64,000 nucleotides of DNA, taken from IMG/VR virus record IMGVR_UViG_3300044701_004608, positions 47,783-111,782 of that record; one strand, written 5' to 3'. This document shows, piece by piece, positions 6,559-62,078 of the stretch. Each line of letters starts with the position of its first letter. The first letter of the stretch is position 1. The notes below the pieces were generated by a model that was not told where the DNA came from, made no database searches, and saw nothing but the letters and a program-made list of their open reading frames with translations. This DNA comes from a virus. Position numbers and translations under genes: made by a program.

Positions 6559-6948
6559 TTATTTTTCCTTGTTTTCGTCAATGATGTCTTGTGCGGTCAA
6601 CACCTGTTTGACCTTGTTGATTTTTTTGGTCACTTCGTCCAAATTGGAGAATAGTGGGCCGGCCGCGGGTGCTTGTTCCACTGGTTCTTCAACTTCTGAT
6701 TCTTTGTCGTCAACGACGAACTTGAGAAGTTGTTCGGCCCGCTCTAAAATCTGTGCTTCTGTGGGATAAGGTGCGAATGGTGGATATGGCAAGCGTTCCC
6801 GGCGAGTTTTCCACACCAGATCAGCATCTGCCAACCACTTGTTGTGATCTTCGGCGCGCTTGTTGATGTATTCTTCGTTGAGGAGGGTGCGCGCCATCCT
6901 CAAGACCTCCATCCTATGTTTGGCTAGTTCAATGTCCTTGTCTATCAT
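6559..6948 (-). CDS. Hypothetical helical protein
   Basis: 129 residues. The ATG at 6948 overlaps the upstream stop codon as ATGA and is preferred over an in-frame start at 6960. The N-terminal 70 residues are charged helix with a PYPPFAPYPTE linker; then an acidic segment (EVEEPVEQ) and a C-terminal helix. No recognised domain. Confidence 0.72.
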   Translation of the reverse strand: MIDKDIELAKHRMEVLRMARTLLNEEYINKRAEDHNKWLADADLVWKTRRERLPYPPFAPYPTEAQILERAEQLLKFVVDDKESEVEEPVEQAPAAGPLFSNLDEVTKKINKVKQVLTAQDIIDENKEK

Positions 6949-7148
6949 TGTTGTCCCCAATCACTGCGGTTCCATAATCTTTCATGTATGATATAACTGA
7001 TAGAGTTGATCACCAGTGTGGCAGCTCCTATCGATAGTCCTTTCCAGGGATCTCCAGTCACTACCCAACCCACTGTGCTGTTAGTGATCATCATCCAGAT
7101 CCTCCAGGTCAGAGTTTTGACTGCTGTGCGTGTCAGTGTGTCTGTCAT
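6945..7148 (-). CDS. DUF2061-like small membrane protein
   Basis: 67 residues. The motif RTAVKTLTWRIWMMITN followed by a second hydrophobic stretch and YIIHERLWNR matches the DUF2061 two-helix membrane family as I know it. It overlaps both neighbours by four bases (ATGA), in one translational unit with 6559-6948 and 7145-7396. Function unknown. Confidence 0.78.
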   Translation of the reverse strand: MTDTLTRTAVKTLTWRIWMMITNSTVGWVVTGDPWKGLSIGAATLVINSISYIIHERLWNRSDWGQQ

Positions 7149-51268: not shown

Positions 51269-52432
51269 TCATTCCAAAAAGTATGGTGGCGAGATCATAC
51301 CTTTGAGTCCTGCTTCGATATTGTTAGTGTTCTGATACCAATATTTGTCAAGGCTAGCTAGATGTTCTGTTAACCGTTGGAAAGGTTGATCGAAGATGAC
51401 GTCTTTCCTCCAATATTCATCACGTAGACTACGCAATACGCTCATTGGTTTGCCCATGCTGAACGTATATGGATTAAAGCCTGGATAGATCAGCCAATTC
51501 AATATCTCACGATAACTGAGTCCGTCGCTGGTTCCTGGCTTGCAAAAAGTCTCCTCGATCATCGGTATACGGATTCGTCGATTATCGTCACGTATGTCCT
51601 CGTTGATCTGCATGATCTCTCGATTCTTTTTAAGGAACCTCATCAGGACATGTCCTTGCTTACAAATTAAATCACAAGATTCAGGCGCCCAATAAAATAA
51701 TTCATCATGTTCCCAGTCTCGAGCTAGTATCTGTGTCCGTATGCTCGGTCCAGTGTCAATCATGTCAACGAAACGAATACAATATTTTCCATCGACGATA
51801 TAAATTCGTGGCTTTTCTATACCAAATATAAACGCATGTGTCAATGACTGTTCGGCCAGTCGAAGATAGTCGGGATCTGACTCTCTCACGAAACCCAGCG
51901 CAAGATGAGTGATTCCAAACGCCGAATTAGTCCAATATGCTAGATTATTTTGAAGGGATGGGTTCAACAGTATTTTATAAACGATGTCGCTAAGATCGAT
52001 CACTTTGTGTTTGAAAGATACTCCACGCTTTTTGAGTTCTTCTAACTTAGGATAGCTGACTTGGTATTGTTCGGCATGGAAAAAATTGTCCCGGCGCGGA
52101 TCTAGTGCGTGGAAGTTGTAAGTGACGATCTCATCTATCTTCAACCCATTGTCGACGAATGTGTTGACTATGTTACCCGAGTCGGCACCGCCACTGTAGA
52201 AGATCGAAACGTAGTCGTACTTTTCTCTGATCTCTTTCGCCCGGCGAGCATAAAGGTCTTCCAATGATTCGGTGGGCTCGACACGCCAGTTGTATGATTT
52301 AAAAACCTCTTCATTGAAATGCCAATGGGGATGTATCCCGGTCCTGGCATGCGCTTCGATGGCTTCGACCTTGCTGTAGGTTTTAAATTCCCCCACACGA
52401 TAGTAGCCGAGTTTATCTTTTTCTGGATTCAT
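51269..52432 (-). CDS. PP-loop (SGGxDS) ATP-pyrophosphatase-like enzyme (copy A)
   Basis: 387 residues from the ATG at 52432. The PP-loop YDYVSIFYSGGADSGNIVNT (SGGADS 80-85) is preceded by NPEKDKLGYYRVGEFKTYSK. The second half has WEHDELFYWAPESCDLICKQ, H and R residues conserved in copy B, and no glutaminase domain. PP-loop enzymes adenylate a carbonyl or amide for amidation, thiolation or ring closure. It is divergent from the 2OG oxygenase and SDR genes; the product is unknown. Confidence 0.82.
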   Translation of the reverse strand: MNPEKDKLGYYRVGEFKTYSKVEAIEAHARTGIHPHWHFNEEVFKSYNWRVEPTESLEDLYARRAKEIREKYDYVSIFYSGGADSGNIVNTFVDNGLKIDEIVTYNFHALDPRRDNFFHAEQYQVSYPKLEELKKRGVSFKHKVIDLSDIVYKILLNPSLQNNLAYWTNSAFGITHLALGFVRESDPDYLRLAEQSLTHAFIFGIEKPRIYIVDGKYCIRFVDMIDTGPSIRTQILARDWEHDELFYWAPESCDLICKQGHVLMRFLKKNREIMQINEDIRDDNRRIRIPMIEETFCKPGTSDGLSYREILNWLIYPGFNPYTFSMGKPMSVLRSLRDEYWRKDVIFDQPFQRLTEHLASLDKYWYQNTNNIEAGLKGMISPPYFLE

Positions 52433-52440
52433 CGTTATAT

Positions 52441-52480
52441 AAGAAAACACCGAGACCGGTCCCTAAACCGACTCGGTGTT
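52441..52480 (-). terminator. Terminator between tRNA-Thr and PP-loop gene
   Basis: AACACCGAG/CTCGGTGTT 9-bp stem, then TTTTC on the minus strand. Confidence 0.6.
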
Positions 52481-52488
52481 GTGTTTGG

Positions 52489-52560
52489 TGCTGGTTGTCG
52501 GATTTGAACTGACGACCTACCGCTTACAAGGCGGTTGCTCTACCCCTGAGCTAAACCAGC
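52489..52560 (-). tRNA. tRNA-Thr (TGT)
   Basis: Standard cloverleaf, acceptor GCTGGTT/AACCAGC, loop CTTGTAA, T-loop TTCAAAT. Discriminator A. The 3' CCA is only partly encoded (CC). Confidence 0.95.
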
Positions 52561-52583
52561 GTTTACTTCAATCAAGTTATATT

Positions 52584-52766
52584 TTAGCCTAAGCCGACGT
52601 TGTTGTCAACTTCTTCGAGCTCTTTAGTGATGTCAATGTCACCGTCTTCAGTGACGATTGTCTCGACTACGTTTTGTTTCTTCTTGCTGAAGATACGATC
52701 GAAGTTGTTGGAGAACTCTTCCTGGCTAACAGAAAAAGGTCTTGGAGAGGATCCTTTGCCTGACAT
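52584..52766 (-). CDS. Small conserved phage protein
   Basis: 60 residues: SGKGSSPRPFSVSQEEFSNN, then FDRIFSKK and an acidic tail (EDGDIDITKELEEVD). AAGGAGATAAG precedes the ATG. Similar short proteins (with a PxPxSVS.EEF..NFD motif) occur in T4-like phages as I recall. Function unknown. Confidence 0.75.
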   Translation of the reverse strand: MSGKGSSPRPFSVSQEEFSNNFDRIFSKKKQNVVETIVTEDGDIDITKELEEVDNNVGLG

Positions 52767-52780
52767 CGTTACTTATCTCC

Positions 52781-53353
52781 TTAATCAAACCAGATATTAT
52801 TATTTACACTCACTTGGAAACTCACACGCACGTTTTCGATGTCTTGTACACCATGTAGGACCATGGTGTTGAGCAGCACCCATTGTCCCAGTGGAAATTG
52901 GACCTTTTCTAGTACGCGGAGCTTGCTGAAATCATTACAGACATCTTGTCGATTCGTCCTCACGATGGGCTTGCCTTCTTCCTCATAGAAGTAAGTAGCG
53001 GTATTTGGGCCGCCGGGCTCGATTAAGTATAGCATGGTAAAATCTCGGGTCAAGTCCGTGTGTGGGCCTTGATGCCGTCCTAGCTTACCGTTTGTGAAGC
53101 TCACTCCACAGTCGAAGCCTTCGGGGTGGATGTTCTCATGCACCCAATCATAGAACTCACGATTGATGTCCAAGCGAGTCTGATACGTGACAGGTTCTTC
53201 TTTACCGTCGATGATGAGCTTGCGGCTCTTATACCAGTCATCAAGATTGTCCTCGGGCTTGTCTGTGTCTACGAACTGTTTCAAATCTAGTGCCGAGTCG
53301 ATGAAATGCTGTGGCACAGGAGGGAGATTTTTTAGTACGACATAAGTGAACAT
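52781..53353 (-). CDS. 2OG-Fe(II) oxygenase-like protein (copy 1)
   Basis: 190 residues. H98-x-D100 (PHTDLTRDFTMLYL) and H167 with R176 (VLHGVQDIENVRVSFQ) are the Fe(II) and 2-oxoglutarate ligands in a jelly roll. FTYVVLKNLPPVPQHF at the start. Same positions as copies 2 and 3, so three paralogues lie within 4 kb. Substrate unknown. Confidence 0.85.
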   Translation of the reverse strand: MFTYVVLKNLPPVPQHFIDSALDLKQFVDTDKPEDNLDDWYKSRKLIIDGKEEPVTYQTRLDINREFYDWVHENIHPEGFDCGVSFTNGKLGRHQGPHTDLTRDFTMLYLIEPGGPNTATYFYEEEGKPIVRTNRQDVCNDFSKLRVLEKVQFPLGQWVLLNTMVLHGVQDIENVRVSFQVSVNNNIWFD

Positions 53354-53364
53354 TTGATTTTCCT

Positions 53365-53646
53365 TTAAAACCAGCCCATAGCTCGGCTGAATCCTAATAT
53401 ATTAGCGGCCACGAAGTAAGCTGTCAATAGCATCGGCCATGCTAACTTCCTGCGATAGTAGGAGATCACAGCACAGATCGATCCAACGAAGAACCCAGGA
53501 TAAACGACTCGCATGTCTGGGGCCGCGGCCGACCATGCCAGTGTCAAGCTCGCTCCTACTGTGAACACGAAGCTAACTATCTCAAGGTAGAACGCTATGC
53601 GATCACTATGATAGCTTTGCTTCCAAAAATTTATGATGGTTTGCAA
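53365..53646 (-). CDS. Small membrane protein
   Basis: 93 residues with three hydrophobic segments at about 17-37, 45-64 and 70-86. It lies just downstream of the start of the divergent block, so it may be expressed separately. Function unknown. Confidence 0.7.
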   Translation of the reverse strand: MQTIINFWKQSYHSDRIAFYLEIVSFVFTVGASLTLAWSAAAPDMRVVYPGFFVGSICAVISYYRRKLAWPMLLTAYFVAANILGFSRAMGWF

Positions 53647-53685
53647 TCTAAGTATCTCATTGTGGGTAGGTATTTTAGTGCCGAT

Positions 53686-53693
53686 AATAAATA
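53686..53693 (+). promoter_or_regulatory. Late promoter-like box, plus strand
   Basis: AATAAATA (7 of 8 to consensus), 25 bases before the ATG at 53718. Confidence 0.4.
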
Positions 53694-53717
53694 CAAAAAA
53701 TAACAGGATTCGGTGCC

Positions 53718-53885
53718 ATGGACTATAAAATTTACATTAACGATCAGCTTTACAAGACGGTTACTACGTCTGACGGTTATAACTATGTTGAAATCATGCA
53801 AGACATCCAGCGTGACAAAGATGCTGGTGAATTGAATGCTTTTGGTATCAATGCCGGAATGTCTGTCAAAGTCGAACAACAGTAA
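53718..53885 (+). CDS. Small conserved phage protein
   Basis: 55 residues: MDYKIYINDQLYKTVTTSDG, YNYVEIMQDIQRDKDAGELN, FGINAGMSVKVE. A small beta-hairpin plus helix protein, widespread in T4-like aquatic phages as I recall. AGGAT lies upstream. The minus-strand open frame here is its shadow. Confidence 0.75.
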   Translation: MDYKIYINDQLYKTVTTSDGYNYVEIMQDIQRDKDAGELNAFGINAGMSVKVEQQ

Positions 53886-53912
53886 TCTACTACTTTTATT
53901 TAGCATTTCGAG

Positions 53913-53938
53913 TTTGGTTGGGAATTATCCCAGCCAAA
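53913..53938 (+). terminator. Hairpin terminator of 53.7 kb gene
   Basis: TTTGGTTGGGA/TCCCAGCCAAA 11-bp stem with one wobble pair and a 4-base loop; no long T-run follows. Confidence 0.45.
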
Positions 53939-53941
53939 TTC

Positions 53942-53962
53942 ATAACGATTAAATATCGTTAT
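53942..53962. promoter_or_regulatory. Late-type box in an 8-bp inverted repeat
   Basis: ATAACGAT and ATCGTTAT form an 8-bp inverted repeat with TAAAT as the loop; the TTAAATATC box lies at 53949-53957. It precedes the plus-strand 2OG oxygenase gene. Confidence 0.5.
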
Positions 53963-53985
53963 ATCCTTCAAATTTAAAATCACCA

Positions 53986-54561
53986 ATGGAAAAAAATTTC
54001 ACCTATAGGTTACTTCCTGACCTTCCTGCTCCTCCAAAAGCCCTCATCGATCAGATCGATCGTTCTTTTCGCCCCGAGGTCAATGATATTGGGGCCATGG
54101 GGAAACGGACTTTAACAAACTGGAACGGAAATTATACAGGCCCGGCGACAAGAAATATAAGGCGCCAGTTCAATGAAGAATACTTGGAATGGGTCCGAAC
54201 GCATATTACCCCTAATTTCCAGAACGCCAGTCTTATGTATTGCTGGGGTTCAAAAGATATTCCTAGCACCGGGGCACATACCGACTATACAAGAGATTAT
54301 GTATTACTCTATAATCTTTCTGTTGGTGGGCCCAATGCAAAGTTGTGCTTTTGGAAACAAGAGGGCCAAGAGCTTATAAGAGACCGCGGGGCAGAAGTCG
54401 GCGAATTTGAGGGCCTCGACTTAGTTGACAGCATCATCGGTCCCGAAAACGTGTGGTATCTTACCAATACAAGAATACTCCACAGCACAGAAAACGTAGA
54501 TAGCCTCAGGCTCAATCTACAAGTAAGTTTCGACACAAAACTTCCCAAGGAAATATTATGA
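53986..54561 (+). CDS. 2OG-Fe(II) oxygenase-like protein (copy 2)
   Basis: 191 residues. Ligands H98-x-D100 (GAHTDYTRDYVLLYN), H166 and R175 (ILHSTENVDSLRLNLQVSF). N-terminus KNFTYRLLPDLPAPPKAL matches copy 3. The stop overlaps the SDR ATG (ATGA), so the two are one transcript. Modest clear ribosome site. Substrate unknown, but linkage to an SDR and a PP-loop enzyme suggests a modification pathway. Confidence 0.87.
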   Translation: MEKNFTYRLLPDLPAPPKALIDQIDRSFRPEVNDIGAMGKRTLTNWNGNYTGPATRNIRRQFNEEYLEWVRTHITPNFQNASLMYCWGSKDIPSTGAHTDYTRDYVLLYNLSVGGPNAKLCFWKQEGQELIRDRGAEVGEFEGLDLVDSIIGPENVWYLTNTRILHSTENVDSLRLNLQVSFDTKLPKEIL

Positions 54562-55109
54562 AAGTCGGTATAACCGGTTCGACATGGGGCATTGGCGCTT
54601 CGATAAGAGAACGACTCGAAGAACTAGGACACGAAGTCCAGGACTTCAGCCGTAGCGGAGGTTGGGATATTTCTGATCCCGGGACTCGTAAACGCATCGT
54701 GGAAGCACTCGCCGACTGCGACATGTTCGTCAACAACGCACACTCGGGGTTCGCACAAGTAGAGATGTTGTTTGAAGCACAAGAAGCCTGGCGTGGCCAA
54801 AAGAAACTCATAGTCAACATCGGTTCCAGCATCACCATGCGCTGGGATACCAAGAATCGAGACAGCAGATATCGCAACGAAAAGCTGGCCTTAGACGATG
54901 CTTGTGAATTCCTATGGAATCGTGATGCTTGGCCTCACATCATGCTGTTCAAACCCTGTGCCACTGACACCGCTCGCATGGCACACTGGTCGGGTGCCAA
55001 GGTAGATCCCGCAGACATCGCGGACTTCCTGGTCTATTGCGCTGGCCAAAAAAAATTCAGGATACAACAGGTTGGCATAGCCATCAATCCTGCTGATCCT
55101 GAAGAATAA
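54558..55109 (+). CDS. Short-chain dehydrogenase/reductase
   Basis: 183 residues, shorter than the usual 230-250. The nucleotide loop TGSTWGIG (6-13), NNAHSG and catalytic Tyr105 with Lys109 (RYRNEKLALD) plus Ser91 upstream give the classical SDR set. It is nested between the 2OG copy 2 and the PP-loop copy B genes. Lack of the C-terminal part may mean a restricted substrate pocket. Confidence 0.88.
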   Translation: MKVGITGSTWGIGASIRERLEELGHEVQDFSRSGGWDISDPGTRKRIVEALADCDMFVNNAHSGFAQVEMLFEAQEAWRGQKKLIVNIGSSITMRWDTKNRDSRYRNEKLALDDACEFLWNRDAWPHIMLFKPCATDTARMAHWSGAKVDPADIADFLVYCAGQKKFRIQQVGIAINPADPEE

Positions 55110-55134
55110 AAATTCTATCTGACATCATTCAATT

Positions 55135-56394
55135 ATGACCGACATCACTAATCCCAAAGATAAATTTGGTTATCATACCATGGGAGATCTCAGAGTCTAC
55201 AATAAAATCGAGACTATTAAACCACCGTTTCAACTTAATTCCAAAGATAAATTTGGGTATTATACTGTAGACGATTTCAAAACCTATAGTAAAATCGAGG
55301 CCGTTGAAACCGCCGATCGAACGAAACGACTTGTTAAATGGCATTTTAACGATTTCGAATATTCCAATTACAATTGGAAGATTGAGCCAACAGAGACATT
55401 AGATGAACTGTACGCTCGCCGGGCATGGCAGATACGGAAAGACTATGATTATGTAGTGATTTTATACAGCGGCGGTATCGACTCACAGAACATCGTTGAC
55501 ACATTTATCAAAAATAACATACCCATCGACGAGTTGGCTACCTTAGACTATCATCAACTCGACCCTCGTCCCGATAGCCATTTCCATGCCGAGCATACTT
55601 ATGTCACTTATCCGGCAATCAAGATGCTTAAAGACAAAGGAATAAGATTCCGACATCGTGCGATCGACCTTTCTGAAATATCAAGAGATGTCTTACTAGA
55701 TCCCAAATGGGATGCGGATCGACCATACTATGGAAATACACATTCCTCTGTGATGCACATATCAAAAACTTATATACGAGAGAGAACTAAAGATTACATG
55801 GATATCATTGATTCCGGGAAAAAACTAGTTCTCGTATGGGGGTGTGATAAACCACGCCTCAAAATTGGATCTGCAGGAAATCTAGAGGTTGAGTTTGTCG
55901 ATACAGTAGGATCGGCTGTTGGTATACGAACTCAGATGTTGAATCGAGAATGGGAACACGACGAATGCTTTTATTGGGCCCCCGAGACTTGTGACATAAT
56001 CTGTAAACAGATACATATACTTAAACGATTCATCCAAACCAATCAGTTTTTTTCCCTTGTTCCAAAATTGTTATTAGACGATAAGATCGATGACCCTGTG
56101 TTATTAAAGTTCCTCGGTGATCGAGGCATCAACAAAGGGTTAGTATACCGAAACATATTAAACTGGCTGATATATACAAATTTCAACTGGGGCATGTTTA
56201 GTACCGGAAAACCACCACTAACGATAGCCAATGTATATAGCCCCAGGGACGAATGCTGGCACAAAGACATAGTTTTTCGCAGACAGTCCGACTTGGTCGC
56301 TCAGTATTATCATACTATCGGAAAACACTGGCTCAGGAATCCCGATACCCCTGCTGCTGGAATGAAAATATTTGGAATCAGATATCCAATCTGA
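55135..56394 (+). CDS. PP-loop (SGGxDS) ATP-pyrophosphatase-like enzyme (copy B)
   Basis: 419 residues. SGGIDS at 112-117; WEHDECFYWAPETCDIICKQ and FGIEKPR-type loop matched by VWGCDKPRLKI. The N-terminus carries a tandem duplication of the segment before the PP-loop (residues 8-28 and 37-57: KDKFGYHTMGDLRVYNKIE and KDKFGYYTVDDFKTYSKIE), present once in copy A. Probably activates a carbonyl with ATP. Confidence 0.83.
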   Translation: MTDITNPKDKFGYHTMGDLRVYNKIETIKPPFQLNSKDKFGYYTVDDFKTYSKIEAVETADRTKRLVKWHFNDFEYSNYNWKIEPTETLDELYARRAWQIRKDYDYVVILYSGGIDSQNIVDTFIKNNIPIDELATLDYHQLDPRPDSHFHAEHTYVTYPAIKMLKDKGIRFRHRAIDLSEISRDVLLDPKWDADRPYYGNTHSSVMHISKTYIRERTKDYMDIIDSGKKLVLVWGCDKPRLKIGSAGNLEVEFVDTVGSAVGIRTQMLNREWEHDECFYWAPETCDIICKQIHILKRFIQTNQFFSLVPKLLLDDKIDDPVLLKFLGDRGINKGLVYRNILNWLIYTNFNWGMFSTGKPPLTIANVYSPRDECWHKDIVFRRQSDLVAQYYHTIGKHWLRNPDTPAAGMKIFGIRYPI

Positions 56395-56406
56395 CCAAAA
56401 AGAAGG

Positions 56407-56415
56407 TTAAATATC
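56407..56415 (+). promoter_or_regulatory. Late promoter-like box, plus strand
   Basis: TTAAATATC, ending 3 bases before the ATG at 56419, so the transcript would be leaderless. Confidence 0.35.
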
Positions 56416-56418
56416 TAT

Positions 56419-57012
56419 ATGAATGAAAAAAATTGGTTGTTTAAAAAAGTTTCCTTGCCACATGTCCCCGAGTATCTAATAGAAATGGCCAGCGAAGAGT
56501 CTGCGCCCGGCATCGGAGACCAAGGCGGAATATACTCAACTCCATACCAACTCGATGGTTGGAAAGGACAATCCTATGCAGCTCCTAGAATAGTGCGGAA
56601 GTCATTCGATGAGAGATTCACTGAATGGGTAAAAGAAAATATCACAGAAAACTTCCAAATTGCAGGAATCATGGTGTGCGAAGGAACACCGGATACGCCG
56701 AGCACCGGAGCACACTCTGATCTCACTAGAGATTTCGCATTGATCTACACGGCTACTCCAGGTGGCGATCACACAGACATTTCATTCTGGAAAGAAGAAA
56801 ATAATCCTGTGTGGAGAGGGAGGGGAGTGCGAGTATCTGATTTTAGCTCTCTTGAGTTTGTCGAATCATTCCCAACGCCGGTAAGGCATTGGTATCTTCT
56901 TAATGTAGGCGTACTACATAGCGTAGAAAATTTATCTGGCAAGAGAGTCAATTTTCAAGTCAGCTTCGAGGGAGAGCTCCCCGAAGAAATACAAAATCTG
57001 TTGACGTCTTAA
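56419..57012 (+). CDS. 2OG-Fe(II) oxygenase-like protein (copy 3)
   Basis: 197 residues. Ligands H99-x-D101 (GAHSDLTRDFALIYT), H167, R176 (VLHSVENLSGKRVNFQVSF). Same length and motif order as copy 2 (about 45% identical by eye). Last gene of the divergent plus-strand operon. It ends just before tRNA-Leu. Confidence 0.85.
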   Translation: MNEKNWLFKKVSLPHVPEYLIEMASEESAPGIGDQGGIYSTPYQLDGWKGQSYAAPRIVRKSFDERFTEWVKENITENFQIAGIMVCEGTPDTPSTGAHSDLTRDFALIYTATPGGDHTDISFWKEENNPVWRGRGVRVSDFSSLEFVESFPTPVRHWYLLNVGVLHSVENLSGKRVNFQVSFEGELPEEIQNLLTS

Positions 57013-60007: not shown

Positions 60008-60580
60008 CTATTTAAATCGTGGGCCAGCGACCCATCCTACTAAACTCAATCTATTCCCCGAGGTTACTGGCGTGACTTCGTGTAACACCCAACTTGGGAA
60101 AAATATCAATTTTCCTTTTTCTCTTGGTGCTACTGTCGCTTCCTCACCAAAATACAACTTTAAATCTCCGCCTGTGTAATCATCATCATTTGATAATTGT
60201 AACACGAAACTTAATTTCCTACAACCGCCGATTCGCTCACCTATGTCGATATGTGTTCCATATTTTCCTTGGATTTCACCAGAATATCGAGTAAATTGGA
60301 GATCCTCAATATGAGTGAGATCGTAATGAAAATATTTGTCATTGACTGCTTTGACGTTCCAGGTCAAGGTATTATAGATCCACTGGTACTCTACGTTGCT
60401 GTGTTCGAACCATGATATATCACTGACACGATGACCTGGGGAAGACTTGACGGCTTCCCCAGGCACCATTGGTGCCGACAGTCCTAGTTTGATAATTTTA
60501 TCAAGTTCGTCGTTGGAGAACATATCTGCTCTCCAGGTCCAGAATTTGTTATCATGTGGCGGATCTAGTAACCAACTCAT
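60008..60580 (-). CDS. PKHD-type 2OG-Fe(II) oxygenase
   Basis: 190 residues. H110-x-D112 (GTHIDIGERIGG), H167 and R177 (SWVLHEVTPVTSGNRLSLVG) give the Fe(II)/2-oxoglutarate site. YTGGDLKLYFG and RKLSFVLQLSN are family marks. Common in T4-like aquatic phages. Substrate unknown; protein hydroxylation is one possibility. Confidence 0.9.
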   Translation of the reverse strand: MSWLLDPPHDNKFWTWRADMFSNDELDKIIKLGLSAPMVPGEAVKSSPGHRVSDISWFEHSNVEYQWIYNTLTWNVKAVNDKYFHYDLTHIEDLQFTRYSGEIQGKYGTHIDIGERIGGCRKLSFVLQLSNDDDYTGGDLKLYFGEEATVAPREKGKLIFFPSWVLHEVTPVTSGNRLSLVGWVAGPRFK

Positions 60581-61472: not shown

Positions 61473-62078
61473 ATGGAACTACACTTCAATAGAATACGAG
61501 ATTTCGTTTATAAAGTCAACCTCGATCTAGGATATACTCACGACGAAATCATCCAAGACTTATCAAACGAATCGTGGACTCCCGATCGTGGCGCTTATGG
61601 CCAGGGCGATCTCGTCGAACGATATTATATCGGATGGGATCAGATCAAAAGTCCCAGATTACAGCAGATACAAGACTATGCCTGTGGCGACAAGTTCCGT
61701 AGATCAGTGATCGATCGTCTTTATAGCGAACCAACATTCGCTGGTTACTGGAGCATCGGCCCCGACGAAATGTTCCACGCTACCGCAAGTTCTGGTCGTT
61801 TCCTACGTGATCGACCAGGATACCACTGCGGCTTACACCTAGACAACAGACTACAAGTCGCCAGTGGCATGATCTACTTCGCTGACAGCGACGACGAATC
61901 TATATCCACTACATTTTATACTACAGAGACCCGACTCAATCCTGTGCGCATACCAACTGGGTTTGGCGCAGGATGGATCTCAGCCAACATGCACGATAGC
62001 TGGCATGATGGATGGAATCGCAGTGATCATGACCGTTATAGCATGATACTGAGTCTGGGACTCAAACTAAATCGATGA
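61473..62078 (+). CDS. 2OG-Fe(II) oxygenase-like protein
   Basis: 201 residues. GYHCGLHLDNRLQVASGMIY gives H122-x-D124; SANMHDSWHDGWNRSDHDRY supplies the distal His (H174 or H178) and R188. Unlike the three paralogues it has a longer N-terminus. Lone plus-strand gene in the minus-strand tRNA array; transcription probably late. Confidence 0.82.
   Translation: MELHFNRIRDFVYKVNLDLGYTHDEIIQDLSNESWTPDRGAYGQGDLVERYYIGWDQIKSPRLQQIQDYACGDKFRRSVIDRLYSEPTFAGYWSIGPDEMFHATASSGRFLRDRPGYHCGLHLDNRLQVASGMIYFADSDDESISTTFYTTETRLNPVRIPTGFGAGWISANMHDSWHDGWNRSDHDRYSMILSLGLKLNR

Follow-up and report, generated by a model that had tools for sequence, protein, structure and literature searches.

Six genes in the window (the whole stretch of 64,000 nucleotides that was analysed) encode PP-loop enzymes, 2OG/Fe(II) oxygenases and a short SDR, and may supply the local enzymes of a set of phage genes that captures and converts a small carboxylate. 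We place the probability of this reading at about 0.4. It is preferred because the phage's own genome also holds a TctA permease, a leaderless DctP-type protein and a TctC-like protein, because PP-loop genes are linked to transport genes in relatives, and because the DctP keeps R158. Adenylation of carboxylates or carbonyls is common among PP-loop enzymes, which fits the same reading. The source record, 111,782 bp long, is that of a real phage, uncultured and rich in tRNAs: it encodes a ribonucleotide reductase, a DnaB-like helicase, a primase, a UvsW-type helicase and 25 tRNAs.

All six ORFs listed by an earlier, sequence-only reading were present, and their coordinates and enzyme classes held. 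The minus strand carries PP1, a PP-loop ATP-pyrophosphatase-type protein of 393 aa with the motif SGGADS (51269-52450; either the GTG at 52450 or the ATG at 52432 is possible as its start), and oxygenase 1, a 2OG/Fe(II) oxygenase-like protein of 190 aa from the OG-A lineage (52781-53353; H98, D100, H167 and R176). Between them ARAGORN placed a tRNA-Thr(UGU) on the same strand (52486-52560). A 93-aa membrane protein, also on the minus strand (53365-53646), lies between oxygenases 1 and 2 and clusters with proteins that adjoin the same genes in other phage contigs (L012, L015/L067 and L018). The plus strand carries oxygenase 2, of 191 aa and the OG-B lineage, with its HxD/H/R motif (53986-54561); the SDR, of 183 aa, with TGxxxGIG, S90 and Y105xxxK109 (54558-55109); PP2, a PP-loop enzyme of 419 aa with the motif SGGIDS (55135-56394); and oxygenase 3, of 197 aa (56419-57012). 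The proposed coupling of the plus-strand genes was borne out, as an ATGA overlap at 54558-54561 joins oxygenase 2 to the SDR, and the gaps that follow, between the SDR and PP2 and between PP2 and oxygenase 3, are about 25 bases each.

The cluster is not a chance grouping, because the same set recurs in other phage contigs. PP-loop, oxygenase and SDR genes were found together in IMG/VR contigs of uncultured phages: the order 2OG-SDR-PP is the same in the window, L068 and L069, the set has a divergent arrangement in L012 and L015, and in L013 the genes for 2OG, TctC, PP and SDR stand in a row. The OG-B oxygenase directly adjoins the SDR in the window, L012, L015, L068 and L069. The sequence-only reading had staked its module on relatives that are not scattered singly and on functional PP-loop residues; we found co-occurrence and intact catalytic motifs. 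That reading also held that the pathway had been duplicated and inverted, and here the trees spoke against it. PP1 and PP2 share 44% identity over 378 aa, but in the tree PP1 pairs with L012:9983 (77-78% identity, support 100/100) and PP2 with L012:8814 (58% identity, support 99/96). Likewise, oxygenase 1 and L066:9968 share 91% identity, oxygenase 2 falls in a clade with L066:8166, L067:8773, L069:1574, L068:4040 and L032:13366 (support 98/98), and oxygenase 3 is a deep branch nearest OG-B. Since the paralogues have separate orthologues in related phages, they predate these phages, and the order and orientation of the genes alone have changed. A recent duplication-inversion was thus rejected for the PP-loop enzymes and for the two main oxygenase lineages, which are old paralogues.

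By motif and modelled HUP core, PP1 and PP2 belong to the PP-loop ATP pyrophosphatase superfamily, with a predicted conversion of ATP to AMP and PPi. The SGGxDS motif is intact in both and in 54 of 59 aligned relatives, the other five having near variants. In the AlphaFold model of PP2 (pLDDT 89.5, pTM 0.88), Foldseek matched the core to those of beta-lactam synthetase, AsnB, LarE and TilS, that is, to a HUP (Rossmann-like) core. This core alone superposes on known folds (TM 0.2-0.3); long alignments have an rmsd of about 16 A at 12-13% identity, and the full-length structural matches were solely unnamed proteins of uncultured phages. The PP-loop proteins had no significant match in Pfam, PHROGs or NCBIfam. 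While they share the motif and the core with AsnB, beta-lactam synthetase, LarE and TilS, the phage enzymes have an N-terminal region of their own, a C-terminal part of about 200 residues and no Ntn glutaminase domain. Membership in the asparagine/beta-lactam synthetase family was rejected: at 393-419 aa, PP1 and PP2 have neither an N-terminal Ntn glutaminase-like domain nor a Pfam Asn_synthase match, and they are not alignable lengthwise with that family.

The best PDB fold match of PP2 was beta-lactam synthetase, with carbapenam synthetase also listed, which raises the thought of a small bioactive product made in parallel to clavam and carbapenem pathways and handled by the binding proteins. 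Those pathways use the same enzyme classes (PP-loop, 2OG and SDR), and clavulanic acid clusters hold a beta-lactam synthetase, a 2OG synthase, an SDR and SBP_bac_5 proteins; an SBP_bac_5 protein also lies near the PP-loop genes of L054. However, the phage proteins do not belong to these families by sequence, the full-length superposition is poor, an N-terminal Ntn-like domain is lacking, and clavaminate synthase is much longer than the oxygenases. We regard such a product as highly improbable.

The facial triad, the downstream arginine and a modelled double-stranded beta-helix fold place the three oxygenases in the 2OG/Fe(II) superfamily. All three have the HxD...H...R pattern, and its two histidines, aspartate and arginine are invariant in 18 relatives. 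For oxygenase 3 (AlphaFold pLDDT 88.7), Foldseek returned 2OG/Fe(II) hydroxylases with a jelly roll, or double-stranded beta-helix; the fold of oxygenase 1 is taken from that of the family. Together with the model of PP2, this confirmed a PP-loop and a 2OG fold. Although they share fold and pattern with known 2OG/Fe(II) oxygenases, none of the three had a significant match in Pfam, PHROGs, NCBIfam or the curated 2OG families, and the cluster and its relatives define new PP-loop and 2OG families. A nearby gene (60008-60580) is an ordinary member of PF13640. In the SDR, TGxxxGIG, S90, Y105 and K109 are kept in six relatives, as in the SDR superfamily; matches in Pfam, PHROGs and NCBIfam were weak at best (Pfam adh_short, 0.0024 for the L069 copy and 0.15 for the window copy).

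If the cluster acted on macromolecules, tRNA, nucleobases or a virion protein would be thiolated or amidated by the PP-loop enzymes, with the 2OG and SDR enzymes completing the modification. The 25 phage tRNAs found by ARAGORN lie within and after the cluster, and the Foldseek matches include TilS and LarE for PP2 and, for oxygenase 3, TYW5, which hydroxylates tRNA, and hydroxylases that act on proteins or ribosomes. This explanation is nonetheless unlikely: the superposition with PP2 is confined to the HUP core, sequence searches matched no tRNA-modifying family, and relatives of the PP-loop genes keep company with secreted binding proteins and permeases. The sequence-only reading had left the target among a virion protein, a nucleobase and a small molecule; the link to TctC, TctA and DctP favours the last, as small-carboxylate chemistry, over the other two.

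The uptake genes lie in the same record, outside the window (C1:3904-7079). They encode a leaderless DctP (C1:3904-4845; PF03480, 4.6e-52), a secreted TctC-like protein recognised by a purpose-built HMM only and too diverged for Pfam (C1:4903-5760), and a TctA permease (C1:5772-7079; PF01970, 6.8e-39); permease and receptor are thus present together, and inspection of the ORFs next to TctA showed no recognisable TctB. The DctP family matched the solved TRAP binding protein 4p47 at 1.7e-42, and R158 of its GLKxR motif, the arginine that in known TRAP proteins binds the ligand carboxylate, is invariant in six aligned copies. A TRAP receptor is expected in the periplasm, but a signal-peptide-like N terminus was found in 0 of 80 distinct phage DctP proteins, as against 89 of 102 TctC proteins. 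Lacking a leader, this DctP cannot work with a normal TRAP transporter, and the family is odd in itself, being a transport receptor kept inside the cell. This split in location would suit sequestration or sensing, in which TctC, once secreted, and DctP, in the cytoplasm, would soak up or sense one of the host's metabolites or signals, made or destroyed by the enzymes. We consider that improbable, as no DctP fused to another domain (nor any Rosetta-stone fusion) was seen among the families scanned, and TctA adjoins TctC in L069, L200, L206, L232 and the phage's own genome, which argues for transport.

In the linear record about 92 kb separate the uptake genes from the cluster, so the link between enzymes and uptake here rests on relatives. 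There, in many uncultured phages, PP-loop genes stand in overlapping operons with TctC, which is a secreted protein that binds tricarboxylates, TctA, a leaderless DctP-like protein and sometimes porins; the order in L069, for instance, is 2OG-2OG-SDR-PP-PP-TctA-TctC-TctA-TctC-PP. A transporter, binding-protein or porin gene lay within 1.5 kb in 17 of 45 PP-loop loci found by sequence and in 0 of 71 comparison loci. Reverse scans, whose seeds came partly from PP-loop neighbourhoods and whose profiles PP2-PP4 were built from the DctP and TctC loci themselves, placed a PP-loop gene within 1.5 kb in 33/48 DctP-found and 22/33 TctC-found loci (comparison, 1/71); with the original PP family alone, the counts were 15/48, 15/33 and 1/71. 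Adjacent PP-transport pairs were on the same strand in 127 of 138 cases, and 62 overlapped.

A loose accessory region, in which independent auxiliary metabolic genes gather in the same variable places and form no single pathway, would also bring such genes together. The neighbours of PP loci do vary much (radical SAM, nitronate monooxygenase-like, DUF3050, DUF2061 and other PP-loop families), a partner for transport or a porin was recognised within 4 kb of only 19/45 of them, and uptake genes and enzymes are far apart in this genome. Yet overlaps of a few bases in PP-TctC, PP-TctA and 2OG-SDR pairs recur across diverged families, and the reverse-scan excess persists after clustering at 60% identity (p 4.5e-4 and 3e-5), which leaves the accessory region a somewhat unlikely account.

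In the preferred reading, capture and conversion of a small carboxylate, the class of substrate, the sequence of the steps, the part played by the leaderless DctP and any gain for the phage are inferred. The secreted TctC-type protein would bind an acid in the periplasm, and the phage TctA permease would import it. Once inside, the acid or a product made from it could be bound by the leaderless DctP-type protein, serving as a carrier or a sensor in the cytoplasm. The PP-loop enzymes may then use ATP to adenylate the carboxylate and couple it to ammonia, an amine or sulfur, after which the small oxygenases may hydroxylate it and the SDR may oxidise or reduce the hydroxyl or carbonyl. In a variant that we think very improbable, a widespread phage system would produce or alter the carboxylate itself, by PP-loop synthetases and tailoring by 2OG and SDR enzymes; secreted TctC and TctA would recapture it and the leaderless TRAP-type protein would sense it inside.

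Single nutrient-binding proteins are known in phages, such as PstS in cyanophages. Viruses of SUP05 carry tctA, its role called unknown, and a 2OG oxygenase as separate single genes (PMC4164917), whereas here they are linked to PP-loop, SDR, TctC and DctP genes. As in the TctABC/Bug and TRAP DctP systems, the phage proteins match TctC (PF03401), TctA (PF01970) and DctP (PF03480), and solved relatives include terephthalate-binding and Bug proteins; they differ in the leaderless DctP, in that no TctB was recognised beside TctA, and in being joined to PP-loop enzymes. In the searchable literature we found no account of a recurrent phage operon coupling PP-loop enzymes to secreted and cytoplasmic carboxylate-binding proteins. 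The linkage suggests that phages have a hitherto undescribed means of capturing and transforming a small molecule; it places hundreds of phage homologues of DctP in one common gene context and yields a testable claim on the metabolites that phages import and alter in the course of infection.

In 50,697 phage records, tblastn with five PP-loop, SDR and 2OG queries gave no match, the PP-loop and oxygenase families being absent there, and TctC likewise gave none; DctP gave matches of 23-27% in unannotated or apparently bacterial records, and TctA two weak ones. Scans of genome contigs with the PP-loop alignment and with DctP, using short patterns that reach close relatives only, gave no relative and therefore pointed to no bacterium as host or source. 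Among the matches listed, megablast with 24 kb around the cluster returned tRNA-sized ones only. Outside the window, the record also carries a third PP-loop gene (C1, about 45.4-46.7 kb) and a radical SAM gene (C1:21554-22693).

All six open reading frames claimed by the sequence-only reading were confirmed as described: two PP-loop enzymes (PP1, 51269-52450, or to 52432 if the ATG start is used, minus strand; PP2, 55135-56394, plus strand), three 2OG/Fe(II)-type oxygenases (oxygenase 1, 52781-53353, minus; oxygenase 2, 53986-54561, plus; oxygenase 3, 56419-57012, plus), and one SDR (54558-55109, plus). PP1 and PP2 share 44% identity over 378 aa and both retain SGGxDS, HxD...H...R is retained in oxygenases 1, 2, and 3, and the SDR retains TGxxxGIG and the catalytic S, Y, and K. 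The proposed coupling of the plus-strand genes also held, with an ATGA overlap joining oxygenase 2 and the SDR, followed by two gaps of ~25 bases each (SDR-PP2 and PP2-oxygenase 3). The 64-kb window spans bases 47,783-111,782 of a 111,782-bp virus record. This record is a phage, because it carries ribonucleotide reductase, DnaB-like helicase, primase, and UvsW-type helicase genes and 25 tRNAs. Near the tRNA array lie a PF13640 (PKHD-type) 2OG enzyme (60008-60580) and an unassigned ORF with HxD...H...R-like residues (61473-62078), both kept in viral loci L066/L067.

Viral contigs were scanned with the PP-loop alignment (54 loci) and the oxygenase alignment (5 loci). Conserved co-localization, the check suggested earlier, was found: 2OG, SDR, and PP genes occur together again in L012, L015/L067, L068, L069, and L013, with the order 2OG-2OG-SDR-PP in L068 and L069. 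For the oxygenase scan alone, a PP-loop gene lies near 4/5 loci; in the fifth, L070 (5 kb), the 2OG gene adjoins TctC, a tricarboxylate-binding protein gene. The module had been thought duplicated and inverted. In our trees, PP1, PP2, and the lineages of oxygenases 1 and 2 (OG-A and OG-B) each have separate orthologues in relatives, which places all four as old lineages; a copied module was therefore rejected, and the local inversion is a rearrangement.

The PP-loop and oxygenase proteins had no significant match in Pfam, PHROGs, or NCBIfam, and tblastn of PP-loop, SDR, and oxygenase queries against phage records found no relative. A pattern scan covering 84,980 species of bacteria and archaea, each represented by a single genome, did not find the PP-loop family; distant relatives would escape such a scan. 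The AlphaFold model of PP2 (59-sequence alignment; pLDDT 89.5, pTM 0.88) matched beta-lactam synthetase, asparagine synthetase, LarE, and TilS in Foldseek, but superposition was limited to the common HUP core; full-length matches were solely uncharacterised proteins from uncultured phages. The oxygenase model (pLDDT 88.7) matched 2OG/Fe(II) hydroxylases. Two rival readings are biosynthesis of a clavam-type product and modification of a macromolecule.

Outside the window, the same record (whole-record coordinates, C1) encodes a TRAP-type binding protein, DctP (C1:3904-4845, equal to L004:3904-4845), a TctC-like secreted protein (C1:4903-5760), the permease TctA (C1:5772-7079), and a third PP-loop gene (about C1:45.4-46.7 kb). 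On the record taken as linear, about 92 kb separates the DctP, TctC-like, and TctA genes from the enzyme cluster. Beside TctA is an unassigned 317-aa ORF with hydrolase-like motifs and no Pfam match (L004:7082-8035), and past it are AhpF-like and AhpC peroxide-detoxification genes (L004:9649-11726), unusual for a phage.

The commonest recognised neighbours of PP-loop genes were other PP-loop genes, TctC, TctA, DctP, and porins. A transport or porin gene lay ≤1.5 kb from 17/45 nonredundant PP loci, compared with 0/71 comparison loci, which were brought in by distant SDR relatives and are shorter. Reverse scans gave 49 loci from TctC and 80 from DctP. Of the loci found from DctP, 33/48 had a PP-loop gene of any family ≤1.5 kb away, as did 22/33 of those found from TctC, versus 1/71 comparison loci, where the seeds were drawn in part from PP neighbourhoods and the profiles of further PP-loop families (labelled PP2-PP4) derived from the DctP/TctC loci themselves; for the original PP-loop family alone, the fractions were 15/48 and 15/33. 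The excess remained significant after 60% identity clustering, and related phages in these counts are not independent events. Adjacent PP-transport pairs were on the same strand in 127/138 cases and overlapped in 62/138. Recurrent operons were PP-TctC-DctP (L151, L156, L157, L158, L205, L223), PP-TctA-TctC(-TctC)-DctP (L200, L232), PP-DctP-TctA-TctC (L206), and PP-TctC-DctP-TctC-2OG (L152, L153, L237). The rival reading of a loose accessory-gene region is opposed by this linkage and favoured by the 92-kb distance. Three more unnamed PP-loop families often lie beside phage DctP/TctC (L225:6443-7690, L182:5039-5959, L247:4497-5369), and Gram-negative porins with signal peptides occur near PP-loop, TctC, and DctP genes (L024, L032, L053, L013, L047, L062).

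TRAP receptors are normally periplasmic. The phage DctP proteins belong to the same sequence family (match to solved TRAP receptors at 1.7e-42, with the Arg of the GLKxR motif retained), but by a crude hydrophobicity rule a signal-peptide-like stretch was absent from 80/80 distinct proteins, most of which begin a few residues from the mature domain. By the same rule, 89/102 TctC proteins have a signal-peptide-like N terminus. Phage DctP therefore probably binds its ligand in the cytoplasm and could not serve a normal TRAP transporter. Sequestration or sensing is a further rival reading. Given the observed genes, motifs, folds, and linkage, the best-supported reading is that the phage gene set captures and converts a small carboxylate, where the substrate, the order of steps, and the benefit are our inference. 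TctC would capture the carboxylate, TctA would import it, and DctP would bind it in the cytoplasm; the PP-loop enzymes may then activate it in an ATP-dependent manner, the 2OG oxygenases hydroxylate it, and the SDR perform a redox step.

SUP05 viral contigs were reported to carry tctA, whose role was called unknown, and 2OG oxygenase as single genes (PMC4164917), whereas here PP-loop, 2OG, and SDR genes are combined with TctA, TctC, and DctP. Searches of open-licence papers on phage TRAP/TTT genes or PP-loop plus oxygenase turned up no account of the combination.

The distant SDR relatives (L079-L149) revealed a recurrent radical SAM-SDR-radical SAM cassette in other phage contigs, with radical SAM ≤1.5 kb away in 57/71 loci. 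Phage DctP-like proteins, a probably cytoplasmic TRAP-receptor family corresponding to PHROG 31178, which has no functional annotation, account for 305 tblastn-confirmed stretches in IMG/VR (L004, L020, L032, L053, L058, L199-L276). A DUF2061 membrane protein often adjoins them (≤300 bases in 12/53 loci; e.g., L028, L042, L051, L225), and a weaker DUF2061 homologue is found at 6945-7148 in the window.
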